From NCBI GenBank assembly GCA_900315095.1, contig OMXS01000012.1, forward strand, positions 1 through 64,000: DNA of 64,000 nt, given 5' to 3'. Source of the stretch: an uncultured Prevotellaceae bacterium. Lineage in GTDB: Bacteria; Bacteroidota; Bacteroidia; Bacteroidales; Bacteroidaceae. Positions within the stretch are counted from its first letter, which is position 1; each line of letters opens with the position of its first letter. Shown in pieces: positions 27,526 to 39,200 of the stretch. The translations under genes were made by a program, and so were the position numbers. The notes beneath the pieces were generated by a model. The model did not search any database and was not told the DNA's origin. It was given only the letters and a program-made list of their open reading frames with translations.

Positions 27526-27557
27526 TTTGGTAGAATAAATTAAAAATACTAAATTTG
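27526..27557 (+). promoter_or_regulatory. Promoter of the type I restriction/defence operon
   Basis: TTTG at 27526-27529 and TAAATTTG at 27550-27557 are 20 bp apart. The first start codon is at 27562, so the transcript should begin at or next to the ATG (near-leaderless). No other convincing promoter is seen until the end of the operon. Confidence 0.72.
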
Positions 27558-27561
27558 CAGC

Positions 27562-28176
27562 ATGAACATATATAGTAATGAATATACTAAGAAAAAAGTT
27601 CGACTGCAAGCTATTGCAGAATTATCATCTGGCATATATCTAAAAGGTTCGCCAGCGGGTAAAATTGCCTATTTGCAGGTCAAGGACCTTTTGATGTCTT
27701 CTCCTGAAACAACTGCCACTCGCATCGAATACACTCCCAAACTGGACAATTATATGCTAAAGAAAGGGGATTTGCTATTCGCTGGCAAAGGTACAACCTA
27801 TTTATGTAAAGTGTTCGACCTAAACATTCCTGCAGTCCCTTCTACCACCTTATATTCTATAAGGCTTCGCTCGAACTTAATCAGTCCAGAATACCTGTGT
27901 TGGTACCTAAATCACCCCAGTGTAGTAGCTGCTGTCAAGACCGTGCAAGCAGGAACGGGGACACCGCTCATACACAAACCTACATTAGAAAATTTGGAGA
28001 TTATCATTCCCGATCATGAGACACAGCAGCGAATAGTAGAACTTTCTTTTTTGCAGAAGCGGGAAAAAGAGATTTTAGAAGCAATTGCCGAAAAGCGAAT
28101 GCAAGTCACAAACCAGATACTTATTAACGAATTAAAAAATAACAGATATGGAGATCAAGAAGATTACCCAAGATGA
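27562..28176 (+). CDS. Half-size HsdS-like specificity protein (one target-recognition domain)
   Basis: A 204-residue protein, about half a normal HsdS. Residues 10-150 look like one target-recognition domain ('GKIAYLQVKDL', 'LKKGDLLFAGKGT', 'LISPEYLCWYLNHP'), followed by the conserved 'IPDHETQQRIVELSFLQKREK' type segment (split: IPDHETQQRIVEL and QKREKEIL) leading into one helix. A full HsdS has two such halves. It lies upstream of hsdM and overlaps it by 29 bp. It could act as a homodimer, or swap in as an alternative subunit. No inverted repeats shared with the full hsdS and no recombinase were seen. The operon promoter puts the message start almost at its ATG. Confidence 0.75.
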   Translation: MNIYSNEYTKKKVRLQAIAELSSGIYLKGSPAGKIAYLQVKDLLMSSPETTATRIEYTPKLDNYMLKKGDLLFAGKGTTYLCKVFDLNIPAVPSTTLYSIRLRSNLISPEYLCWYLNHPSVVAAVKTVQAGTGTPLIHKPTLENLEIIIPDHETQQRIVELSFLQKREKEILEAIAEKRMQVTNQILINELKNNRYGDQEDYPR

Positions 28177-29677
28177 CATTAACCGCACGGTGTGGAAAGC
28201 CTGTGATACTTTCCGTGGTGTGATAGATCCGAGTCAGTACAAGGATTACATCCTCACCATGCTTTTCTTGAAGTATGTAAGCGATGTGTACAAGTCCAAG
28301 TTGAGCGAATACCTTATTAAATATAATAGTGATAAAGAACGGGCAGAGCGAGCTATGCGACACGAACGTTTTGTAGTTCCCCAACGAAGTTCATTTGATT
28401 TCCTTTACGATAACAGAAATGCCACGAATATTGGCGAACTGATAGACGAGGCTTTAGCCGATCTTGAAGATGCCAACCGCGAGAAGATGAGCAGCGAAGA
28501 CGGTAGCAGTATTTTCCGCAATATAAGCTTTAATAGTGCCAACTTGGGTGAGCCCAAAGAAAAGAATGCCCGTCTAAAGAATTTGTTACAAGATTTCCGC
28601 GATTTGGATTTGGATGAGTCGCATTTAGAGAACAACGACATCATTGGTGATGCCTACATGTATCTTGTTTCTACCTTTGCTGGAGAGGCAGGTAAGAAAG
28701 CTGGTGACTTCTTTACACCAGCAGAAGTCTCCACCCTACTCGCCAAACTCACTAAGAGTAAGCCTGGTGCTCGCATCTGTGATGTCACTTGTGGTTCTGG
28801 CTCTTTACTGATTAAGGCAGGCAAGGAAGTGGGAAACAACAACTTCTCGCTCTATGGCCAGGAAGTCAATGGTAGTACGTGGGCATTGGCAATGATGAAC
28901 ATGTTCCTGCATGGCTTTGACAATGCTGTCATCAGATGGGGCGATACGCTACGTAATCCCAAGTTAAAGGTCAATGACAAACTGATGAAGTTCGATACTG
29001 TTGTGGCCAATCCTCCTTTCAGCCTTGACAAGTGGGGAGCAGAGGAAGCAGCCAGCGACCCATACAACCGTTTCTGGCGAGGCATTCCACCTAAGAGCAA
29101 GGGTGACTGGGCTTTTATCAGTCACATGCTAGAAGTTGCCGACGATAACGAAGGTAAGGTTGGTGTCATTATTCCTCATGGTGTTCTCTTCCGTGGTGGC
29201 AGTGAAGGCAAGATTCGCCAGTATATCTTGGAGAATGAGCATATTCTGGAAGCAGTCATTGGCTTACCAGCCAACCTTTTCTATGGTACTGGCATTCCTG
29301 CAGCTATTGCCATTTTCCGTAAAGGTCGCAACTCAGATAACGTACTTTTCATTGATGCCAGTCGAGAGTATGAAAACGGTAAGAATCAGAACAAACTCCG
29401 TGAAAAGGATATTGAGCACATCGTCACGACTTATCAGAAGTTCGTCCGTGGTGAGTTTGCTCCAGGTGTAGCCGAAGACAAGTATGCCTTTGTCGCTACT
29501 CCTGATGACATACGTGAGAATGATTTCAACCTCAACATCCCCCGCTATGTTGATACCTACGAGGAAGAAGCCGAAATCGACATCCCTGCTGTGCAGAAAG
29601 AAATCGAGCAATTAGAAGAAGAATTGGTCGAGGTTCAAGCCAAGATGAAAGAGTATTTGAAACAGTTAGGTTATTAA
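28148..29677 (+). CDS. hsdM: Type I restriction-modification methyltransferase subunit
   Basis: A 509-residue adenine-N6 methyltransferase subunit. An N-terminal helical domain (about 1-150) is followed by the SAM-binding motif I DVTCGSGSL (212-220) and catalytic motif IV NPPF (288-291). With HsdS it methylates the host's own sites, and with HsdR it forms the restriction complex. The C-terminal end is a coiled coil (EIEQLEEELVEVQAKMKEYL) that should contact HsdS. Length is normal. The start overlaps the half-HsdS gene, and a membrane-protein gene follows after 24 bp. Confidence 0.95.
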   Translation: MEIKKITQDDINRTVWKACDTFRGVIDPSQYKDYILTMLFLKYVSDVYKSKLSEYLIKYNSDKERAERAMRHERFVVPQRSSFDFLYDNRNATNIGELIDEALADLEDANREKMSSEDGSSIFRNISFNSANLGEPKEKNARLKNLLQDFRDLDLDESHLENNDIIGDAYMYLVSTFAGEAGKKAGDFFTPAEVSTLLAKLTKSKPGARICDVTCGSGSLLIKAGKEVGNNNFSLYGQEVNGSTWALAMMNMFLHGFDNAVIRWGDTLRNPKLKVNDKLMKFDTVVANPPFSLDKWGAEEAASDPYNRFWRGIPPKSKGDWAFISHMLEVADDNEGKVGVIIPHGVLFRGGSEGKIRQYILENEHILEAVIGLPANLFYGTGIPAAIAIFRKGRNSDNVLFIDASREYENGKNQNKLREKDIEHIVTTYQKFVRGEFAPGVAEDKYAFVATPDDIRENDFNLNIPRYVDTYEEEAEIDIPAVQKEIEQLEEELVEVQAKMKEYLKQLGY

Positions 29678-29701: not shown

Positions 29702-30703
29702 ATGTGCAATTTATTGGGCAATTTCTTATCCGATTACAATTGGAACATAGGGATAATCCATTCCCTTGCAGCCATTGGACTTTTTTGCATAGTTAATTGG
29801 TTGGGCAAACACTCTATTTCTATAGGATACATGCAAATATCTGTTTCTACAGAAGAAGAATCCTCACCTGCATTTAATTTTATCTTTAGGGTTATTTCTC
29901 CTATTGTGTATTTTATTTTCTTCATAGTAGTTGTGCAAAATCTTGGTTTTAAGGAGTATACCAAGAACGCTTATATGATTGTAATCTTCTACTGGGCTTT
30001 TCGAACAGTAATAAGAGGTTTGTGGGGGCGAATGGCGTTAACAAACAAAGTAGGTTATTTCACATGTGCTATCATATGTATTTGTATAACTTATTGGCTA
30101 TATTTTACTGTCTCCAAAGTTGATAATATTCTTCCTGATCCAAAGTCCTTATTGAATGAAATGTGGATACTAATGATTCTGTTCATTTATAATGTTATAA
30201 ATAGATTACAACCTTCAGACAATAATGCAATAAACAGAAAAGAGCACTACATCAAAAAAAAGTATCTAAAATATAAAAAAGAATACAATTATATTATTAA
30301 AAACATATGCCATAATCAGTTCTATGAAGCAACTACATATGCCATTATGATATATGAAAATTTTAATCGTCCCAAGTTCGTACGCTTTATCGAAAAGATA
30401 TATTTTCATATAACAAAAAAGCCAATTACGTTAGGCATTATGCAGGTTCGAACGAAGAAATTAATAGATGATGAGACTTCTATTGTTATGGCTATTGATA
30501 TTATCAAAAAAGCCACGTTAAAGCACAAACACAGAATAAAAGATTCGAGTGAGTATGAATATGACAATCCCCATATTGCTGTATATGAAATTGCTGGAAC
30601 ATATAATTGCAATAACGGTAAGTATCAAAGCGAAGTAAGTGATATTTATGATATTATTGAGAAAAAATACAACAATATAAATAAACATTATAACAAGATA
30701 TGA
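29702..30703 (+). CDS. Unrecognised membrane protein with possible lysozyme/transglycosylase-like domain
   Basis: A 333-residue protein, noticeably AT-rich compared with hsdM. Residues 1-165 contain four or five membrane segments. A Lys/Tyr-rich linker (about 180-200) leads to a soluble C-terminal domain. That domain has the blocks AIMIYENFNRP (an acidic residue before NRP), PITLGIMQVRTKK and LIDDETSI. Their order loosely recalls glycosidase/transglycosylase folds, in which a catalytic Glu is followed by a G-[IL]-[MT]-Q motif. This is a weak inference. It overlaps the Fic gene by 4 bp and is therefore part of the restriction operon. It may be an effector, or a phage-entry or cell-wall factor; no known family is assigned. 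Confidence 0.65.
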   Translation: MCNLLGNFLSDYNWNIGIIHSLAAIGLFCIVNWLGKHSISIGYMQISVSTEEESSPAFNFIFRVISPIVYFIFFIVVVQNLGFKEYTKNAYMIVIFYWAFRTVIRGLWGRMALTNKVGYFTCAIICICITYWLYFTVSKVDNILPDPKSLLNEMWILMILFIYNVINRLQPSDNNAINRKEHYIKKKYLKYKKEYNYIIKNICHNQFYEATTYAIMIYENFNRPKFVRFIEKIYFHITKKPITLGIMQVRTKKLIDDETSIVMAIDIIKKATLKHKHRIKDSSEYEYDNPHIAVYEIAGTYNCNNGKYQSEVSDIYDIIEKKYNNINKHYNKI

Positions 30704-32028
30704 TTATGAATAAAATAGAATCATTATACAAAGAGTGGCAATCACTTCAGCCACTGAAAGAACAAGACCAAAACCGTCTTGACCAAAAATTTATGTTAGA
30801 GTTTAACTACAACTCTAATCACATTGAAGGTAACACTTTGACGTATGGCCAAACAGAAATGTTGCTTATGTTCGGTAAGGTCGTTGATGAGGCCAACATG
30901 AAAGACTTGGAGGAAATGAAGGCTTCCAACGTTGGTTTGAAAATGGTCAAAGAAGCTGCCTTAGATAAAGAGCAGCCTCTTACCGAGTACTTTATCCGTA
31001 CCTTACACCAGACATTGCTTCGCGAAGACTATACCGTATATCGCCAACTTCCTGATGGCACTAATACGTCGTATGTAGTCCATGCAGGGCAATATAAAAC
31101 CCGCCCCAATTCTGTTATCACCGCTACTGGCGAGCGTTTTGAATATGCCTCGCCAGAAGAAACGCCTGCACTCATGACAGACCTGCTTCAATGGTACAAT
31201 CAAGCTGAATCAGAAAGAGTAATGTCACCAATAGAATTAGCTTCGTTGTTCCACTATCGCTATATCCGTATCCATCCTTTTGAAGACGGGAATGGCAGAA
31301 TATCACGTTTGATAGTCAATTACATCCTTTACCGTAATGGTTATCCTATGATAGTAGTTAAGAGTGCCGATAAGAATAATTACCTGACAGCTCTTAATCG
31401 CTGTGATGTAGCAATAGGCCCGATTCCTTCTGACGGTGCTCATGCAGAACTGTCCCAGATCACTCCGTTTATTGACTACATGTCTTCATGCTTAGAAAGA
31501 GCCTTAATCATCAGTATCAAGGGAGCTAAGGGTGAGAGCATAGAAGATGCTGACGATTGGAGAAAGAATCTTAAATTAAAGTATCGTGACCAGATAAACA
31601 AGCCAGAGATTACCGAGGAGGTCATGAAAAAAATATGTGAAGAGGACTTTTTATCATTAGTCAAGCAGGTAGACCATGATTTGTCAGAGTTCTATTCAGT
31701 ATTTACATCTGTGCGCTGGAACCCTTCTAATGGAGCTTTTCAAAGAGTTGCAACAGGTGTTTTTCAGGCCGATATCGCCTTCTGTAAAGAGTTTAATGTC
31801 ATAAAATCCTCTATTACTATCCGTCTTTGTCTTACTTTCCAACAATTCCTATATAGAATAAGCATTTCATCCATTAATAGCATGTCACATGAGCACACTC
31901 TATACAAGAAAGAATATTCATACTCTGAATTTATGACAGAGCAAGATCAAGTTGATATTATTAACGCAATAGGCAACTATCTTAATCTGTTTATCGAAAC
32001 TCATGGTTTCACAAATAAAAGGCTCTAA
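30700..32028 (+). CDS. Fic-domain protein (self-inhibited type)
   Basis: A 442-residue protein. The Fic core motif HPFEDGNGR is at 192-200, complete for AMP transfer. The N-terminal inhibitory helix motif NSNHIEGN (38-45, Glu43) belongs to the class in which one chain carries its own inhibitor, so no separate antitoxin is needed. The C-terminal 170 residues are helical and unassigned. It may modify (usually AMPylate) a host or phage protein. Fic genes are often found inside Bacteroidetes type I loci. The start overlaps the membrane-protein gene (ATGA at 30700-30703). A second ATG two codons in (30706) is possible. Confidence 0.9.
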   Translation: MIMNKIESLYKEWQSLQPLKEQDQNRLDQKFMLEFNYNSNHIEGNTLTYGQTEMLLMFGKVVDEANMKDLEEMKASNVGLKMVKEAALDKEQPLTEYFIRTLHQTLLREDYTVYRQLPDGTNTSYVVHAGQYKTRPNSVITATGERFEYASPEETPALMTDLLQWYNQAESERVMSPIELASLFHYRYIRIHPFEDGNGRISRLIVNYILYRNGYPMIVVKSADKNNYLTALNRCDVAIGPIPSDGAHAELSQITPFIDYMSSCLERALIISIKGAKGESIEDADDWRKNLKLKYRDQINKPEITEEVMKKICEEDFLSLVKQVDHDLSEFYSVFTSVRWNPSNGAFQRVATGVFQADIAFCKEFNVIKSSITIRLCLTFQQFLYRISISSINSMSHEHTLYKKEYSYSEFMTEQDQVDIINAIGNYLNLFIETHGFTNKRL

Positions 32029-32029
32029 T

Positions 32030-32263
32030 ATGATTACTGTACAAGACTTATACAATATTGTAGGCAATAAGATTGCCAATGAGGCTCAGAAATCAATAAT
32101 TCGATACGACTTACCTCCGCAAACAGCGGAACAGATGTGTAATGCTATAGACCATCATGAGGCTGCTGATCTTTTTCAGCGTTTCTTGACTGAATGGATA
32201 GAAGCTCAACAGAGACAACAGCAGGCTATACAATCGTTCCTACAATTGTACTACAACAGATGA
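32030..32263 (+). CDS. 77-aa protein between fic and hsdS, unknown
   Basis: A small helical protein beginning MITVQDLYNIVGNKI with a Gln-rich C-terminus (EAQQRQQQAIQSF). ATG 32030 is chosen because it follows the Fic stop by one base; the frame is open back to 32003. Its stop overlaps the hsdS start (ATGA, 32260-32263), so it is almost certainly translated. It has no signal peptide or membrane segment. It could be a Fic regulator or an HsdS accessory protein. I do not recognise it. Confidence 0.65.
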   Translation: MITVQDLYNIVGNKIANEAQKSIIRYDLPPQTAEQMCNAIDHHEAADLFQRFLTEWIEAQQRQQQAIQSFLQLYYNR

Positions 32264-33486
32264 CTAACAAAGAAAAACATATACCACAAGGATATAAGGA
32301 CTCTCCACTTGGTATCATCCCTAAGGAATGGGAAGTGAAGAGGTTAGGAGACATATGCGATTATGTTGATTATAGAGGAAAAAGCCCTAATAAATCTTCT
32401 AAAGGTATATTCCTCGTTACTGCAAAAAACATTCGTGAAGGATATATTGATTATGAGGTTTCACAAGAATTTATTCCAATAGATGAATTCGAAGATACAA
32501 TGCGCAGAGGAAAAGCACAGATTGGGGATGTCTTAATTACTACCGAGGCACCTTTAGGACATGTGGCCCAAATTGACAAATCTAATATTGCACTCGCTCA
32601 ACGAGTAATCAAATACAGAGCCAAAAATGGACTTCTTAATACATACCTGAAATATTATCTTATGTCCGAAAAGTTCCAGACCATATTGACTGCGAATGCT
32701 ACTGGAAGTACTGCTTTGGGCATAAAAGGTAGCAGATTACATCAGTTGCCAATTGCCTTTCCGTGCATAGTAGAACAGAAAAAAATACTTAATATTTTGA
32801 ATCTTTGGGACACCGCCATAGAGAAGCAATCAGAATTGATTGAAAAACTCAAATTGCGCAAACGCGCATTGATGCAGCAACTCCTTACAGGCAAGAAGCG
32901 CCTGCCAGGATTTAGTGGGGAGTGGAAAGAGGTTAAATTAGGAGATGTCTTTGATGAGCGTAATGAAACAAACCGTGATGATTTGCCCCTGCTGTCAATA
33001 ACAGGTGACAAAGGGGTTATATATCAATCTGATTCAGATAAAAGAGATATTTCTAATGACGACAAATCAAAGTATAAGCGAATTTGTCCCAACGACATCG
33101 GTTATAATACCATGAGAATGTGGCAAGGCAGAAGTGCATTGTCAAGCATAGAAGGTATTGTAAGCCCAGCTTATACTATTGTCACTCCACACAAGAATGT
33201 TGACGTTAGATTCATGGCAATGCTCATTCAGCAGCCACGTGTAGTATATGATTTCTGGACACACTCGCAAGGTTTAGTTAGTGATACGCTTAACTGCAAA
33301 TATCCAGACTTCTGCCAAGTGAAAGTCCGAATACCTTCTAAAGAAGAGCAAACAGCCATAGCTGATTTGCTGTACGAATTCGACAAAGAAATAAATCTTG
33401 CCAACGAGAAATTAGCAAACCTGCAATCTCAAAAGCGAGGCTTAATGCAGCAATTATTAACTGGTAAAAAAAGAATAAAATTATGA
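32260..33486 (+). CDS. hsdS: Type I restriction specificity subunit (full length)
   Basis: A 408-residue protein with two target-recognition domains. TRD1 (about 15-150) and TRD2 (about 205-350) are each followed by a conserved helix ending in the internal repeat RALMQQLLTGKKRLPGF (about 205-220) and RGLMQQLLTGKKRIKL (C-terminus). The 'YKDSPLGIIPKEWEVKRLGD' type opening (split: SPLGIIPKEW, EVKRLGD) is standard. It sets the bipartite DNA site for methylation and cleavage. ATG 32260 is preferred over the frame start 32194 because it removes 22 non-homologous residues and gives a 4-bp overlap with the 77-aa gene. Its own stop overlaps the cyclase start by 4 bp. Confidence 0.94.
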   Translation: MTNKEKHIPQGYKDSPLGIIPKEWEVKRLGDICDYVDYRGKSPNKSSKGIFLVTAKNIREGYIDYEVSQEFIPIDEFEDTMRRGKAQIGDVLITTEAPLGHVAQIDKSNIALAQRVIKYRAKNGLLNTYLKYYLMSEKFQTILTANATGSTALGIKGSRLHQLPIAFPCIVEQKKILNILNLWDTAIEKQSELIEKLKLRKRALMQQLLTGKKRLPGFSGEWKEVKLGDVFDERNETNRDDLPLLSITGDKGVIYQSDSDKRDISNDDKSKYKRICPNDIGYNTMRMWQGRSALSSIEGIVSPAYTIVTPHKNVDVRFMAMLIQQPRVVYDFWTHSQGLVSDTLNCKYPDFCQVKVRIPSKEEQTAIADLLYEFDKEINLANEKLANLQSQKRGLMQQLLTGKKRIKL

Positions 33487-34217
33487 GTTTAAGAGATGAT
33501 ATTATAAAAAAGGCAAAAGAAATTGAATCAGAGACCTTCTTAGTAGAAGATGTTTCTTACGTTCCAACAATTTCTAACAGCAAACTCACTTTTGGTTGCA
33601 AAGGATTAGAGTTTGAGGCTACTGTTCTATATATAGACATGAGAGGGTCAACTGCTATTTTGAATTCACACAGAAAAAGAGTCGTGGCAAAGATACACAT
33701 GCTATACTATCACGCCATTGTCAAGATTGCAAAAGCTACAGGAGGTGAAATACGTAGCTTTAATGGCGATAGTTTGTTAGTATTTTATCAAGGAACAACA
33801 AAACAATCGTTGTCAAACGCCGTAAAAGCTGCAATGCAAATGAAATATGCAATTAAAACTTTGCTAAATGACAATTTGAAAAATTATACTGATATAGATT
33901 TTGGAATTGGCATAGATGATGGGAAAATTTTAGCAACAAAAGTAGGTGTCGGTGGTACTGATGAAACCAAAGATTTAATATGGATTGGTAATGCTGTAAA
34001 TAAATCCACTAAAATTAGCGATAATTGTAAATCATCTTTTAACATCGGCATTTCTAAACGAGTATATGACAATCTTCTTGACAACGTAAAGTATCATGAG
34101 AAAGACAATGGTGTTTTTGGTAAACAGAAAATAAATATGTGGAACCAAAACTATTTTACATATAATGGAGCAAACGAAATGTTCTATAAAACGAGTTATT
34201 ATTGGACGATTGAATAA
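33483..34217 (+). CDS. pycC: Pyrimidine/nucleotide cyclase, PycC-like (Pycsar)
   Basis: A 244-residue single-domain class III-type cyclase, with no membrane or sensor domain. The two metal-binding aspartates are in YIDMRGST (Asp52) and SFNGDSLLV (Asp96). The C-terminal motif is IGNAVNKSTK (Asn173, with Lys177 where adenylate cyclases usually have Arg). Stand-alone cyclases of this size next to a small membrane protein are the mark of Pycsar, in which PycC makes cCMP or cUMP on phage infection. The product cannot be told from sequence. Its ATG overlaps the hsdS stop (ATGA 33483-33486), placing it inside the restriction operon. The gene is AT-rich like its partner, which suggests later insertion. 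Confidence 0.82.
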   Translation: MSLRDDIIKKAKEIESETFLVEDVSYVPTISNSKLTFGCKGLEFEATVLYIDMRGSTAILNSHRKRVVAKIHMLYYHAIVKIAKATGGEIRSFNGDSLLVFYQGTTKQSLSNAVKAAMQMKYAIKTLLNDNLKNYTDIDFGIGIDDGKILATKVGVGGTDETKDLIWIGNAVNKSTKISDNCKSSFNIGISKRVYDNLLDNVKYHEKDNGVFGKQKINMWNQNYFTYNGANEMFYKTSYYWTIE

Positions 34218-34241
34218 TTCAAATAAAGATAAAGAACAATT

Positions 34242-34784
34242 ATGGAAAAAAAAGATTATTGTACTGAATTACACAACCAAATAATTGGTTGGACAAGTAA
34301 TTGCGACACAAAGGCATCAATTGTACTTGCCTTTATTGGAATACTTGTTTCCATTACATTTACCAGCGAATATCTCTTAGTAGGTGTTCAAACAGAAATT
34401 GAAAACATCATAAACTATTGGAAAAACGGCATCGGTGGCTTCAGTTTATTGTCTACATTTATGTTTCTTTCACTATTCGGCTTCGTTATTTCCACGCTGT
34501 TATGCTGTTATTATGTAATATCATCGTTAAAGGCTAATCTCGAATGTCCTAATGATTCCATTATCTTCTTTAGAAAGATAGCGGAATTGTCCAAAGAAAA
34601 ATATATCGAAAGAGTAAATAGTTTATCAGAAGAGGAATTCGATCAAGACAAACTTTCTCAAATACATATTTGTGCAAAAATATGTGATGAAAAATTCAAG
34701 TTTTACAATAAGAGCACCAAGTATCTAAAATGGGGCTTATTGTTGTTTGTTTGTTTAGTGTTTTTTGTAGTTTTATTGAAATAA
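34242..34784 (+). CDS. pycTM: Pycsar membrane effector, PycTM-like
   Basis: A 180-residue protein with three membrane segments (about 26-43, 68-95, 161-178) and a cytosolic, charged region between the second and third. The N-terminus has the WTSNCDTKAS motif just before the first segment; a [D]-T-K-A motif there is characteristic of the Pycsar effector family (DUF5706). By family, the cyclic pyrimidine nucleotide opens or assembles the protein and damages the inner membrane, ending phage growth with the cell. It starts 24 bp after the cyclase. A SLATT-type 2TM effector is an alternative reading, but the cyclase neighbour favours Pycsar. Confidence 0.8.
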   Translation: MEKKDYCTELHNQIIGWTSNCDTKASIVLAFIGILVSITFTSEYLLVGVQTEIENIINYWKNGIGGFSLLSTFMFLSLFGFVISTLLCCYYVISSLKANLECPNDSIIFFRKIAELSKEKYIERVNSLSEEEFDQDKLSQIHICAKICDEKFKFYNKSTKYLKWGLLLFVCLVFFVVLLK

Positions 34785-34807
34785 ACTAATGCCGAAAAGC
34801 ATTTGAA

Positions 34808-35155
34808 ATGTTTAATCAGGGAATCAGGCGTGTACAAGAAATGCTTCGAGAAAATAATAACGAGGAAGCTGTTTTTGATGTTTCTAAGTTAACCGTTTTT
34901 GAAGTGAATGTTTTCTCAACTGTTGATGATGTCACTCAAGATGTCACTCAAGATGTCACTCAAGGTGATACCCAAGGTGATACCCTTGATGCTTGGATAG
35001 AGACTCAGATAAAGAAAAATCCCAAAGTGACAACTGAGGAATTGGCAAGTTTGAGTAATAAAGGGGTTGCTACAATTAAACGTCATCTTGCGAAATTGCC
35101 TCATATTAAATATGTAGGAAGTGGTTATAGTGGGCACTGGGAAATAGAAAAATAG
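34808..35155 (+). pseudogene. Remnant of an AlbA_2/AAA_4-type regulator (C-terminal part)
   Basis: The 115 residues match only the end of the Bacteroidetes AlbA_2-domain ATP-binding regulators as I recall them: 'FNQGIRRVQEML', 'FDVSKLTVFEVNVF', a DVTQ-repeat linker (in intact proteins often QVTPQVT), then a winged-helix segment (VTTEELASLSNKGVATIKRHL). The N-terminal DNA-binding and ATPase parts are missing. It may be a broken passenger, or it may survive as a small HTH protein. It lies between the Pycsar pair and hsdR, 7 bp before hsdR. Confidence 0.55.
34928..34987 (+). repeat. 12-bp coding tandem repeat
   Basis: Five 12-bp units: GATGTCACTCAA three times, then two GGTGATACCC-type units. 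They encode DVTQ/GDTQ in the linker of the 34808 gene. Confidence 0.85.
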
Positions 35156-35162
35156 GGCAAAT

Positions 35163-38100
35163 ATGGATAGAATATCATTCAAGGAAAACGATATAAGCCA
35201 AAAGCCGGCTTTGGAATTGTTGCAGAAGTTGGGCTATCAGTATCTTTCGCCAGAGGAAGCGTTGATGATGCGAGGCGGAAAGACTTCCAATGTGTTGTTG
35301 GAAGAGGTGCTGAGACGGCAGTTGCGAGAATTGAACTCCATACGGGTGGGCAGTCGCAAGGAGGAACGTTTCTCGGAACAGAACATTGAGAACGGCGTGA
35401 TAGCCATGCGGAATGTGCCAATGGAAGGCGGTTATCTAAGTGGCAATGAGGCTGTTTATAACATGCTAACGCTTGGAAAGGCTTTTGAGCAGAGTATTGA
35501 TGGGGACAAGAAAACCTATACGATGCGCTATATTGACTGGGAACACCCTGAAAACAATGTTTATCACGTAACAGAAGAGTTTGCAGTTACCCGTACCGGC
35601 ATTGCTGACACCTACCGTCCTGACATCGTGCTGTTCGTGAACGGTATTCCATTGGTGGTGATAGAGTGTAAACGACCAGATATCAAGGGGGCTGAAGAAC
35701 AGGCTATTTCTCAGCATCTGCGTAATCAGCAGGATGACGGCATCAGGGGACTTTATGTATATAGTGCCCTACTATTGGCTATCGGCAATAACTTCGGAAG
35801 TTACGCCACCACTGGTTCAGCTCAGAAGTTCTGGTGTAAATGGCGCGAGATGCATATCAACAAAGATGAGGAATTGGAGTATGAGAAAAGACTATTAGAT
35901 ATCGTAAACAGAGATGAGGATGAAGTACGGACCGCCACAGAGCAAGACAGATATATCTACAACCTATGTCGTCCAGAGCGTTTACTGGAACTGATCTACC
36001 ATTTTACAATCTATGATGCTGGTATCAAGAAGTTAGCTCGCTATCAGCAATTCTTCACGGTGAAAGAGATTGTTGAGCGAGTGAAACGAATTGAAGCAGG
36101 CAAACGCAATGGTGGTGTAGTGTGGCACACTCAAGGAAGCGGTAAGTCACTGACAATGGTGATGCTGGCACAAAAGATTGCTACTGTTGTGCAGAATCCA
36201 AGGATTGTCTTGGTGACAGACCGTACCGACTTGGATGCACAAATCACCAAGACATTCCGTAAATGTGGTAAGGATGTGGAGAATGCGACAACTGGCATCA
36301 AACTGGTGGAGTTATTGGAAGGTAATACAGATTCCGTCATTACAACCATTATCAATAAGTTTGCAACCGCCATTAAGAAAATCAAGCAGCCATTGACTGA
36401 CCCGAATATCTTTATTTTAATCGATGAGGCCCATCGAAGTCAATATAAGGAAATGGCCATACAGATGAATCGCGTTCTGCCCAATGCATGTAAAATTGCC
36501 TTTACGGGTACGCCTCTGATGAAAAAAGACAAAAATACAGCTCGCACTTTCGGAGGTATCATCAAACCTGTCTATACTGTGAAGCAGGCTGTAGAAGACC
36601 ATGCTGTGGTGCCACTTCTCTATGAAGGGCGCATTGTGCCCCAATTCGTCACGGAAGGACCTATCGACAGTTTCTTTGATCGTGTGTGTGAGGACTTGAC
36701 GGAAGAACAGTCTGTGGATTTGAAAAAGAAATTTTCTAGAACGGACATCCTGAATCAGACTGAGCAACGCATCTTTTCAATTGCAACAGACATTTCAGAG
36801 CATTACGCAGACAACTGGAAGGGAACTGGCTTTAAGGCCATGTTGGTGACACCCAAGAAACGAGTTGCCATCCTATACAAGAAATATCTGGATGAGATTG
36901 GCAAAGTTACATCAGAAGTGCTGATTACGGCACCAGACGATCGTGAGGGTGAAGAAACAGCTTACGGAGGGACACCTGAGGAGGTAAAAGTCTTCTGGAA
37001 AAAGATGATGGATGAGCATGGAGCCCCACATAAATATCAGGAGAATCTGATTGCCAGATTCAAGGGACAGGAGGATCCGGAAATTATGATTGTCGTTGAT
37101 AAATTGCTGACTGGATTTGACGAGCCAAAAGTAACAGTCATGTATATTGACCGTCATCTGACAGGACATACACTACTGCAGGCTGTGGCTCGTGTCAATC
37201 GTAATTGTGACGGAAAAGACTATGGCTATATCATTGACTACTATGGCGTGCTGGCAGAATTGGATGATGCGTTAAGCATCTACTCTGAGTATGACGAAGA
37301 AGACAAAGAAGTATTCCGTGAGACACTGGCCCCTGTTAGTGACAAGATTGCAGAACTTCCTCAAAAGAATGCCGACTTATGGGATTTGTTCAAGACAATT
37401 CCCAACAAACGTGACTTAGAGGCATACGCCCAATCATTGCGACTGGAAGACAGGCGTCATGAGTTCTATGACCGTCTGACAGCTTTCTCATCAGTGCTTC
37501 AACTGGCTCTTTCTACTAAGGAGTTTCATGAGAATACAGATGAAAAGACGATTGAACGATACAAAGAAGATTTACGTATGTTTGCCAAACTGCGCACTTC
37601 TGTTCAATTGCGCTATTCCGATGCCGTTGACTATAAGAAGTACGAGGCAAGGATTGAAAAACTCATTAATCGTCATGTGGAGAGCGATGAGGTAAAGGTC
37701 ATCACAAAGTTGGTTAACATCTTCGATACAGAGAATTTCCAGAAGGAGGTTGACAGTATTGTTGGAACGGCAGCCAAAGCAGATACCATTGCTTCGCGTA
37801 CCTCTAAATATATCAAGGAGAATATGGATTCTGATCCTGCCTTCTACAAGAAATTCTCTCAACTGATTCGTGAGGCTATTGAAGCATACGAGCAGGGACG
37901 TCTTAGCGATAACGAGTATCTGGAAAAGATGATGCAGTATAAGGAAGATGTACTGAATCATACGGACAGTGAACTACCAGCAGAGTTAGAGCATAACAAT
38001 GCTGGTAAAGCCTATTATGGTATCGCATTGGAGAATTATAAACGACTTTTCTCAGATCAGCCCATCAAAGAAATGGCTCTTGCTACAACCAAAGCTTTCG

Positions 38101-38309
38101 ATGAGATTATCCGTAAAGCAGTAATTGTTGACAATGCGATCTTAGTTGATTGGCAGTCAAAGAGTGATATCATCGGAAAAATGAAGATTGATCTGGAAGA
38201 CGAGTTGATAGATAATATCAAGCGGAAGTACGAACTTGAATTCTCATTCGACGACATGGATGTGATTATTGACGGTTGTGTAGATGTGGCTAAGATATGG
38301 CTCAAATAA
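35163..38309 (+). CDS. hsdR: Type I restriction endonuclease motor subunit
   Basis: A 1048-residue subunit that translocates and cuts unmodified DNA. The N-terminal nuclease has PDIVLFVNG ... VVIECK (Asp154, Glu168, Lys170, the PD-ExK site). The SF2 motor has Walker A TQGSGKS (near 323-329), DEAH (LIDEAHRSQ near 420) and motif VI-like VARVNRNCDGKDYGYIIDY (split: VARVNRNC, DYGYIIDY). A helical C-terminus docks on HsdM/HsdS. All key residues are intact, so the system is probably active. It is the last large gene of the operon; a YgjP-type gene overlaps its end by 13 bp. Confidence 0.96.
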   Translation: MDRISFKENDISQKPALELLQKLGYQYLSPEEALMMRGGKTSNVLLEEVLRRQLRELNSIRVGSRKEERFSEQNIENGVIAMRNVPMEGGYLSGNEAVYNMLTLGKAFEQSIDGDKKTYTMRYIDWEHPENNVYHVTEEFAVTRTGIADTYRPDIVLFVNGIPLVVIECKRPDIKGAEEQAISQHLRNQQDDGIRGLYVYSALLLAIGNNFGSYATTGSAQKFWCKWREMHINKDEELEYEKRLLDIVNRDEDEVRTATEQDRYIYNLCRPERLLELIYHFTIYDAGIKKLARYQQFFTVKEIVERVKRIEAGKRNGGVVWHTQGSGKSLTMVMLAQKIATVVQNPRIVLVTDRTDLDAQITKTFRKCGKDVENATTGIKLVELLEGNTDSVITTIINKFATAIKKIKQPLTDPNIFILIDEAHRSQYKEMAIQMNRVLPNACKIAFTGTPLMKKDKNTARTFGGIIKPVYTVKQAVEDHAVVPLLYEGRIVPQFVTEGPIDSFFDRVCEDLTEEQSVDLKKKFSRTDILNQTEQRIFSIATDISEHYADNWKGTGFKAMLVTPKKRVAILYKKYLDEIGKVTSEVLITAPDDREGEETAYGGTPEEVKVFWKKMMDEHGAPHKYQENLIARFKGQEDPEIMIVVDKLLTGFDEPKVTVMYIDRHLTGHTLLQAVARVNRNCDGKDYGYIIDYYGVLAELDDALSIYSEYDEEDKEVFRETLAPVSDKIAELPQKNADLWDLFKTIPNKRDLEAYAQSLRLEDRRHEFYDRLTAFSSVLQLALSTKEFHENTDEKTIERYKEDLRMFAKLRTSVQLRYSDAVDYKKYEARIEKLINRHVESDEVKVITKLVNIFDTENFQKEVDSIVGTAAKADTIASRTSKYIKENMDSDPAFYKKFSQLIREAIEAYEQGRLSDNEYLEKMMQYKEDVLNHTDSELPAELEHNNAGKAYYGIALENYKRLFSDQPIKEMALATTKAFDEIIRKAVIVDNAILVDWQSKSDIIGKMKIDLEDELIDNIKRKYELEFSFDDMDVIIDGCVDVAKIWLK

Positions 38310-39004
38310 CAAGAGACCATATACAATATGGAGCAACTATTATCGATTATGATATAGAGTTCTCCCCAAGAAAGACACTGAGCATTTGTGTCAATCCTGA
38401 TAGTACCGTCTGTCTGAAGGCGCCTTTAGATGCGACCTTAGAACAGGTTCAACAGAAAGTGCACAAAAGGGCCAGTTGGATTCTCAAACAAAAGCGGTTT
38501 TTTGAGTCATTCGGCACACCTACAACGAAGCGCCAGTATATCAGTGGAGAATCGCATCTATATTTGGGACGCCAGTATATGCTCAAGGTAAGGGAAAGTA
38601 ATGTGAATGCGGTCCATTATCAGAATAACATCATTGAGATAGAGTGTCGTCACAGAAAGGATGCCGGTGTGCTGTTACAAACTTGGTATCGCCAACGGGC
38701 CAACATCAAATTCCTGGAATATGCGAAGCCTATCATTGAACAATTCTCTGCTTATGGTGTAAAGCCCCAAAGTCTTTCTATTAAGAAGATGGATAAACGA
38801 TGGGGGTATTGTACCATTGATGGACATATCACGTTAAACCCTCGGTTGATTTGTGCCCCCAGATGTTGTATTGAGTATGTCATCACACACGAATTATGCC
38901 ACCTCATCCATCGCAGCCATAATAAGGATTTCTACGCACTTCTTACCAAGGAAATGCCACATTGGGAGAAGTGGAAAAACAAACTTGAGCGAATAATGTC
39001 ATAA
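38297..39004 (+). CDS. YgjP-type (DUF45) zinc metalloprotease
   Basis: A 235-residue cytoplasmic protein with the zinc-binding HELCHLIHRSH (near 198-208) and the upstream KRWGYCT block of the family. YgjP-like proteins often follow hsdR in type I operons; their role there is unknown, and a proteolytic check on HsdR or SprT-like DNA-protein repair has been suggested. It overlaps hsdR by 13 bp and is followed by the operon terminator, so it is the last gene of the island. Confidence 0.88.
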   Translation: MAQITRDHIQYGATIIDYDIEFSPRKTLSICVNPDSTVCLKAPLDATLEQVQQKVHKRASWILKQKRFFESFGTPTTKRQYISGESHLYLGRQYMLKVRESNVNAVHYQNNIIEIECRHRKDAGVLLQTWYRQRANIKFLEYAKPIIEQFSAYGVKPQSLSIKKMDKRWGYCTIDGHITLNPRLICAPRCCIEYVITHELCHLIHRSHNKDFYALLTKEMPHWEKWKNKLERIMS

Positions 39005-39165: not shown

Positions 39166-39200
39166 TGGCGCATGGTCTTAGTGACTGTGCGCCATTTTTT
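39166..39200 (+). terminator. Terminator of the defence operon
   Basis: GGCGCA (39167-39172) pairs with TGCGCC (39188-39193) and GTC with GAC inside, followed by ATTTTTT. The rest of the 221-bp spacer is AT-rich with no feature. Confidence 0.8.

Follow-up and report, generated by a model that had tools for sequence, protein, structure and literature searches.

The 64,000-nucleotide stretch analysed here (the window; contig OMXS01000012.1 of an uncultured Prevotellaceae bacterium, assembly GCA_900315095.1) carries two genes, pycC (33483-34217, + strand) and pycTM (34242-34784, + strand), which almost certainly form a Pycsar (pyrimidine cyclase system for antiphage resistance). The pair is tightly packed inside a type I restriction operon, between hsdS (open reading frame (ORF) 32194-33486) and hsdR (35163-38309), as a first-pass annotation of the sequence had proposed. 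Very probably, a complete Pycsar is cargo in this hsdS-hsdR slot, is expressed with the operon and acts as follows. Phage infection would switch PycC on, and PycC would make a cyclic pyrimidine mononucleotide, most likely cyclic UMP (cUMP), to which PycTM would respond by breaking the inner membrane, and the infected cell would stop before phage release. Defence genes would be exchanged at the slot, the probable route being recombination in the conserved hsd sequences on either side, and one transcript would carry DNA restriction together with a changing second module.

Both ORFs exist as annotated, the start codon of pycC overlaps the hsdS stop by four bases (ATGA), and 24 base pairs (bp) separate pycC from pycTM. 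PycC (244 amino acids) is a class III pyrimidine cyclase of the PycC family, which matches the PycC profile over its full length, has no fused sensor domain and carries Asn173 and Lys177 as well as the metal-binding Asp52 and Asp96, both of which are invariant in a cyclase alignment of 16 rows. According to the structure comparison, the PycC of Burkholderia cepacia (BcPycC, PDB 7r65), a cUMP synthase, is the top match by a clear margin. The adjoining PycTM (180 amino acids) is a three-segment membrane effector with hydrophobic stretches at residues 21-49, 63-96 and 158-180 (19-residue averaging), and the DTKA motif noted earlier lies at residues 22-25, where the first segment begins. Of eight aligned rows, six show CDTKAS and the remaining two CDIKAS and CDTKSS, while D22, K24 and S26 are invariant in all eight, window counted. 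The match to Pycsar effectors that the annotation had called for was obtained with PADLOC PycTM (4e-31 and 3e-30), and the profile E-values of the pair (9.5e-68 and 4e-31) are far beyond chance. The predicted PycTM structure is all-helical (mean predicted local distance difference test score 80.0, from 8 sequences). PycTM was described in the available text of PMC11224242 as disrupting membrane integrity, and the same action is highly likely for the window protein. Each gene is present as a single copy in its own genome.

A scan of genome contigs yielded 14 related loci (L003-L016), and an effector stands beside the cyclase in all of them. It is a window-type PycTM in L003-L009, a PycTM by PADLOC in L011, L012, L013 and L015, and a PycTIR in L010 (PADLOC 2.4e-100; Pfam CAP12-PCTIR_TIR and cNMP_binding), while those of L014 and L016 were found by tblastn with the L012 effector. 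The expectation that homologous loci would have Pycsar-type neighbours thus held in every relative and in only half of four distant loci of the order (cyclase 25-28% identical), where an effector was matched in L048 and L049 but not found in L050 and L051 with the queries used.

The embedding itself recurs in L003, L005, L010 and L047. L003, a Prevotella metagenome-assembled genome, and L005 share the window's hsd family (HsdR 97% and 84% identical, respectively) and its gene order of hsdS, PycC, PycTM and hsdR, with a second cyclase preceding PycC in both and five further ORFs after PycTM in L005. L006 and L007 show hsdM, hsdS, PycC and PycTM, the second cyclase being present only in L007, and their contigs stop before hsdR. 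The order in L010 is hsdM, a weak hsdS (27% identity over 43%), PycC, PycTIR, a second cyclase (PycC2), an AlbA_2 protein and hsdR (HsdR 29% identical), and the slot of L047 (5779-8634) holds a PycC of another clade (419 amino acids; PDLC00761, 1.5e-141) with a 168-amino-acid PycTM, beside an HsdR of the window's family (55%). At least three pairings of a Pycsar type with an hsd type can therefore be recognized.

Pycsar of this type is rare and scattered. At ≤1e-20, a match occurs in only one of 400 genomes of the family, the window's own, and in five of 393 in the order (window counted). At 1e-15, the PADLOC profile was matched in 66 of the 393 order genomes, only four of which (G000, G563, G598 and G744) span essentially the whole model; G654 and G429 match about profile positions 3-193, and the remaining matches represent the general cyclase core. 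In the PycC tree, which carries long-branch warnings for L013b and PycC2, L004 and L009, both outside window-type hsd, and the window group's five hsd-embedded PycCs branch together from an unresolved fork. PycC therefore likely moves between contexts, and as judged from these sequences the tree points to neither one nor several hsd origins. Carriage by a phage or plasmid was considered and rejected, as no close relative was found among viral contigs (18 pattern stretches, none confirmed), phages (a single, distant match with 28% identity and an E-value of 1e-7) or plasmids (33 records, all below 60% identity). As a separate observation, L011 (4244-7421), on a contig labelled Altiarchaeales, has a DnaK 52% identical to that of the window beside PycTM and PycC, and the contig could be a bacterial contaminant.

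The slot was surveyed through the window's HsdR family (≤1e-200), which occurs in six of 301 family genomes and 32 of 393 order genomes, window counted in both. The survey comprised 25 loci (L023-L047), namely all five further matches from the family and, from the order, 20 of the 31 further ones. The fetched pieces of L031, L032 and L033 lack hsdS, and the hsdS-hsdR interval was measured in the remaining 22. The slot is empty in L034 (38 bp) and loaded in the other 21 (663-6745 bp). Fifty-seven slot ORFs of at least 60 amino acids were listed, 34 of which were tested with PADLOC, with a family cut-off of 1e-5. Named defence or candidate families occur in 14 of the 22 loci (≤1e-5, a count with no random-interval control), AlbA_2-like proteins and their matches to prokaryotic Argonaute (pAgo) models not being counted. 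They include PDC-S34 in L024, L025, L027 and L039 (with PDC-S02 additionally in L025), a PtuA/AriA-like protein in L026, a defence-type kinase in L029, SLATT 2TM in L027 and L035, AbiTii in L036, pAgo in L037, PDC-S05 in L038, DUF3800_VII (2e-13) in L040, a SAVED-HNH effector in L041, a cyclase and phospholipase of CBASS (cyclic-oligonucleotide-based antiphage signalling system) in L045, and the Pycsar of L047; the PDC names denote PADLOC candidates rather than proven systems. The weak, short match in L028 (3.6e-6 over 63 residues) was left out of the count, L023 and L043 hold only AlbA_2-like and unassigned proteins, and no defence family was found among the PADLOC-tested ORFs of L030, L042, L044 and L046. 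Large cargo proteins (571, 1149 and 715 amino acids) with no PADLOC match at the thresholds used were also observed in L030 (13606-15321) and L044 (9823-15406), and these are candidates for novel defence genes. The hsdM-hsdS interval is a second one that varies, the relatives having between 5 and 5669 bp there.

Comparison of the window with L003 in 60-bp blocks revealed mosaic sequence. Identity is 93-100% at 33601-34020, 58-85% at 34021-34500, 90-100% (most blocks 97-100%) at 34501-35640, and 65-95% beyond 35640 to 36180. Synonymous divergence (dS) is 0.01 for HTH115, 0.54 for PycC, 0.72 for HsdR and 0.95 for DnaK, and between L003 and L007 it is 0.06 for PycC2 and 1.40 for PycC. These patterns would be explained most simply by homologous recombination in the recent past, the breakpoints lying within the cassette and within hsdR.

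HTH115 (34808-35155, + strand, 115 amino acids), which lies between pycTM and hsdR and was absent from the first-pass annotation of the pair, aligns with residues 358-482 of a 504-amino-acid AlbA_2/HATPase_c_4/HTH protein of L005 (73% identity). The SLFN_AlbA_2/HATPase_c_4/HTH gene is intact in L005, L006 and L024, and HTH115 is therefore its C-terminal remnant; L029 retains 26 start residues and 58 end residues of the gene. On these grounds, HTH115 was rejected as an independent Pycsar regulator. It contains 12-bp in-frame tandem repeats and differs from the L003 copy by two bases and a 12-bp length difference; because the copies are almost identical, their ratio of nonsynonymous to synonymous divergence (dN/dS) is uninformative, while the value of 0.07 against the full-length L024 gene stems partly from the full-length branch. 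HTH115 may nevertheless act as a small protein that binds DNA. Its near identity to the L003 copy contrasts with the divergent flanks.

The block that holds the pair comprises 11 genes, all on the + strand, in which neighbours overlap by at most 29 bp or lie at most 24 bp apart. It is opened by hsdS1 (27562-28176; 204 amino acids, a single specificity domain), followed by the methylation gene hsdM (28148-29677; MTase_I 7.4e-132). Next comes the first cargo slot (29702-32263), which separates hsdM from hsdS and contains mem333 (29702-30703), a membrane protein with no family match in Pfam, PADLOC or NCBIfam, a Fic-domain protein (30700-32028; PADLOC PDC-S04), and the small orf86 (32003-32263), which lies between the Fic gene and the full-length specificity gene hsdS2 (32260-33486; start 32260 chosen, ORF from 32194). 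From hsdS2 to hsdR (REase_I 1.7e-187), the gaps are -4, 24, 23 and 7 bp, and the embedded genes are thus co-directional, with no large gaps. The last gene (38297-39004, 235 amino acids), which presumably encodes a metallopeptidase, has a homologue after hsdR in all 24 pieces of L023-L047 reaching that point and none in L010.

Directly upstream of hsdS1 is a promoter-like site (27526-27557, + strand; TTTG, 20, TAAATTTG), which we take to resemble the Bacteroidetes-type promoter and whose exact pattern occurs nine times in the 64 kb, three of them on the + strand. After the last gene comes a terminator-like hairpin (39166-39194, + strand) with a run of T residues behind it. Both sites are consensus matches and would be compatible with, rather than proof of, a single transcript. 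Judging from the placement and tight packing of the genes, the pair is probably expressed with hsd, by co-transcription and by the translational coupling that the first-pass annotation had suggested. As a further observation, the promoter-like site stops 4 bp 5' of the listed hsdS1 start, which might mean a leaderless transcript or an hsdS1 start further down. Separately, HsdS1 is 54-90% identical in closer relatives (L003, L006, L007, L024, L028, L029 and L030), against 32-38% for the full-length HsdS2 of the same loci; HsdS1 could bind DNA as a regulator dedicated to the operon.

Several observations weigh against a complete, co-expressed Pycsar. The Pfam Pycsar effector family PF18967 is matched by PycTM at 6.2e-5, and the 23.8 bits fall below the gathering cut-off of 27.2; no solved relative stands out for the PycTM model. 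A partial promoter-like match lies within the region at 34746, and sigma-70-type and terminator-like matches barely exceed those of shuffled sequence (11 terminator-like sites in the scanned region, 8.2 expected). Six genomes of the order have a PycC that matches this profile, and only in the window does it adjoin hsd genes of the window or L010 type; the fetched pieces of G563, G598, G744, G654 and G429 show no such neighbourhood. Finally, BcPycC contacts UTP through Y50, D94 and R97 according to the available text of PMC11224242, and the window PycC has Y50, N94 and S97 at these positions. The base used by the window enzyme is not settled by this comparison, because N94 and S97 differ; cUMP is the somewhat favoured prediction and cyclic CMP (cCMP) a less likely one. 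The altered contacts, together with the Pfam label Guanylate_cyc (1.1e-7), might instead suggest an ordinary cAMP or cGMP cyclase that happens to have a membrane protein as neighbour. Such an enzyme is highly improbable and was rejected on profile, fold and neighbour evidence, given the full-length PycC match, the margin of 7r65, the lack of a fused sensor domain and the effector adjoining the cyclase in 14 of 14 relatives. Decay is also very improbable: the adjoining AlbA_2 gene is truncated and pycC is shortened or split in L015 and L016, as might be expected of a relic, but both window genes are full length, the catalytic residues are retained, and dN/dS is 0.07-0.18 across four comparisons.

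Given a functional Pycsar, its relation to restriction allows two views. It was proposed to serve as a functional back-up of restriction, which appears rather doubtful; the chance is slightly better than even that Pycsar works independently, as a hitch-hiker that gains only expression and transfer, an account compatible with the cargo reading. In Coprobacter, the same cassette (81% identical PycC, with PycTM) stands beside SspC/SspD (L004, 699-11305; L052 is apparently the same contig), no window-type hsd genes are present within the fetched pieces of L008, L009 and L011-L016, and the cargo at the slot is varied. As well, the embedded TgvAB of V. cholerae was reported to protect without HsdR restriction activity, although for several phages the protection by tgvAB alone was 10-100-fold weaker than that by the complete cluster (PMC11411939, available text). 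Set against independence, five loci retain a tight hsdS-to-first-cyclase spacing (4-base overlap to 5-base gap), a sign that joint expression may be under selection, though not a demonstration of functional coupling.

Published work already describes other defence systems embedded in this part of a type I operon. According to the available text of PMC12255303, DarTG2 occupies this position in enteropathogenic Escherichia coli and the site was called a potential recombination hotspot; like the window, that operon has a second defence system in the same type I slot, but its cargo is a toxin-antitoxin with the repressor RptR first, and it belongs to another bacterial phylum. The GmrSD-like TgvAB is likewise a two-gene defence cassette inside type I hsd, and differs in being a modification-dependent restriction system rather than second-messenger signalling (PMC11411939, as above). 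The BcPycC and Anabaena PycC/PycTM systems share profile family, fold, single-domain cyclase and the two-gene cassette with an adjoining membrane effector (PMC11224242, as above), whereas the window pair has the altered contacts and lies inside a restriction operon. In L010, a PycC of the same subfamily (62%) also lies between hsdS and hsdR, and the differences are a TIR-type effector (a relative of PDB 8jsj), a second cyclase and a distant hsd family. No report of Pycsar inside hsd, or of a two-cyclase Pycsar, was found among the open-licence literature matches listed, which does not establish absence from print.

PycC2 (PADLOC PDLC02368; 1.1e-87 in L003 and 3.6e-97 in L010) is present in four of the 14 relatives, in the same hsd slot (L003 9249-9995, L005 3650-4399, L007 9249-9995, L010 8981-9703), and is absent from the window; the second cyclase of L013 and L015 is a different one and lies outside hsd. 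Position 177, a basic position after the catalytic Asn, is Lys in PycC and Asn in PycC2 of L003, L005 and L007, and the situation is reversed in L010 (PycC Val, PycC2 Lys). Exactly one partner keeps the full pair of residues in these four of six two-cyclase loci, a small number in which L003, L005 and L007 are close kin. L013 is ambiguous (PycC Asn but Val, partner Ser but Lys). All eight readable one-cyclase loci, judged within the fetched pieces (window, L004, L006, L008, L009, L011, L012 and L014; the split L016 was not counted), keep Lys or Arg. Position 177 was read by eye from translations for PycC2 of L007, the second copies of L013 and L015 and PycC of L015, and otherwise from the alignment. 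Some Pycsar of this subfamily might use two unlike cyclases as a heterodimer with one good active site, which we regard as unlikely; L015, where both partners keep both residues, speaks against it. If it were true, the window would represent a one-cyclase sister and the partner cyclase could be an infection sensor.

The window adds to the known cases in which a defence system is nested within a second one, here what looks like a second-messenger defence tied to a restriction operon in Bacteroidales. The presence of Pycsar, CBASS, Argonaute, AbiTii, kinase and candidate systems among 22 loci suggests that the hsdS-hsdR slot of Bacteroidales is a general docking place for defence genes. It is a natural search space for new defence systems, and it offers a test of whether defences layered within a single operon work together or simply share a vehicle.
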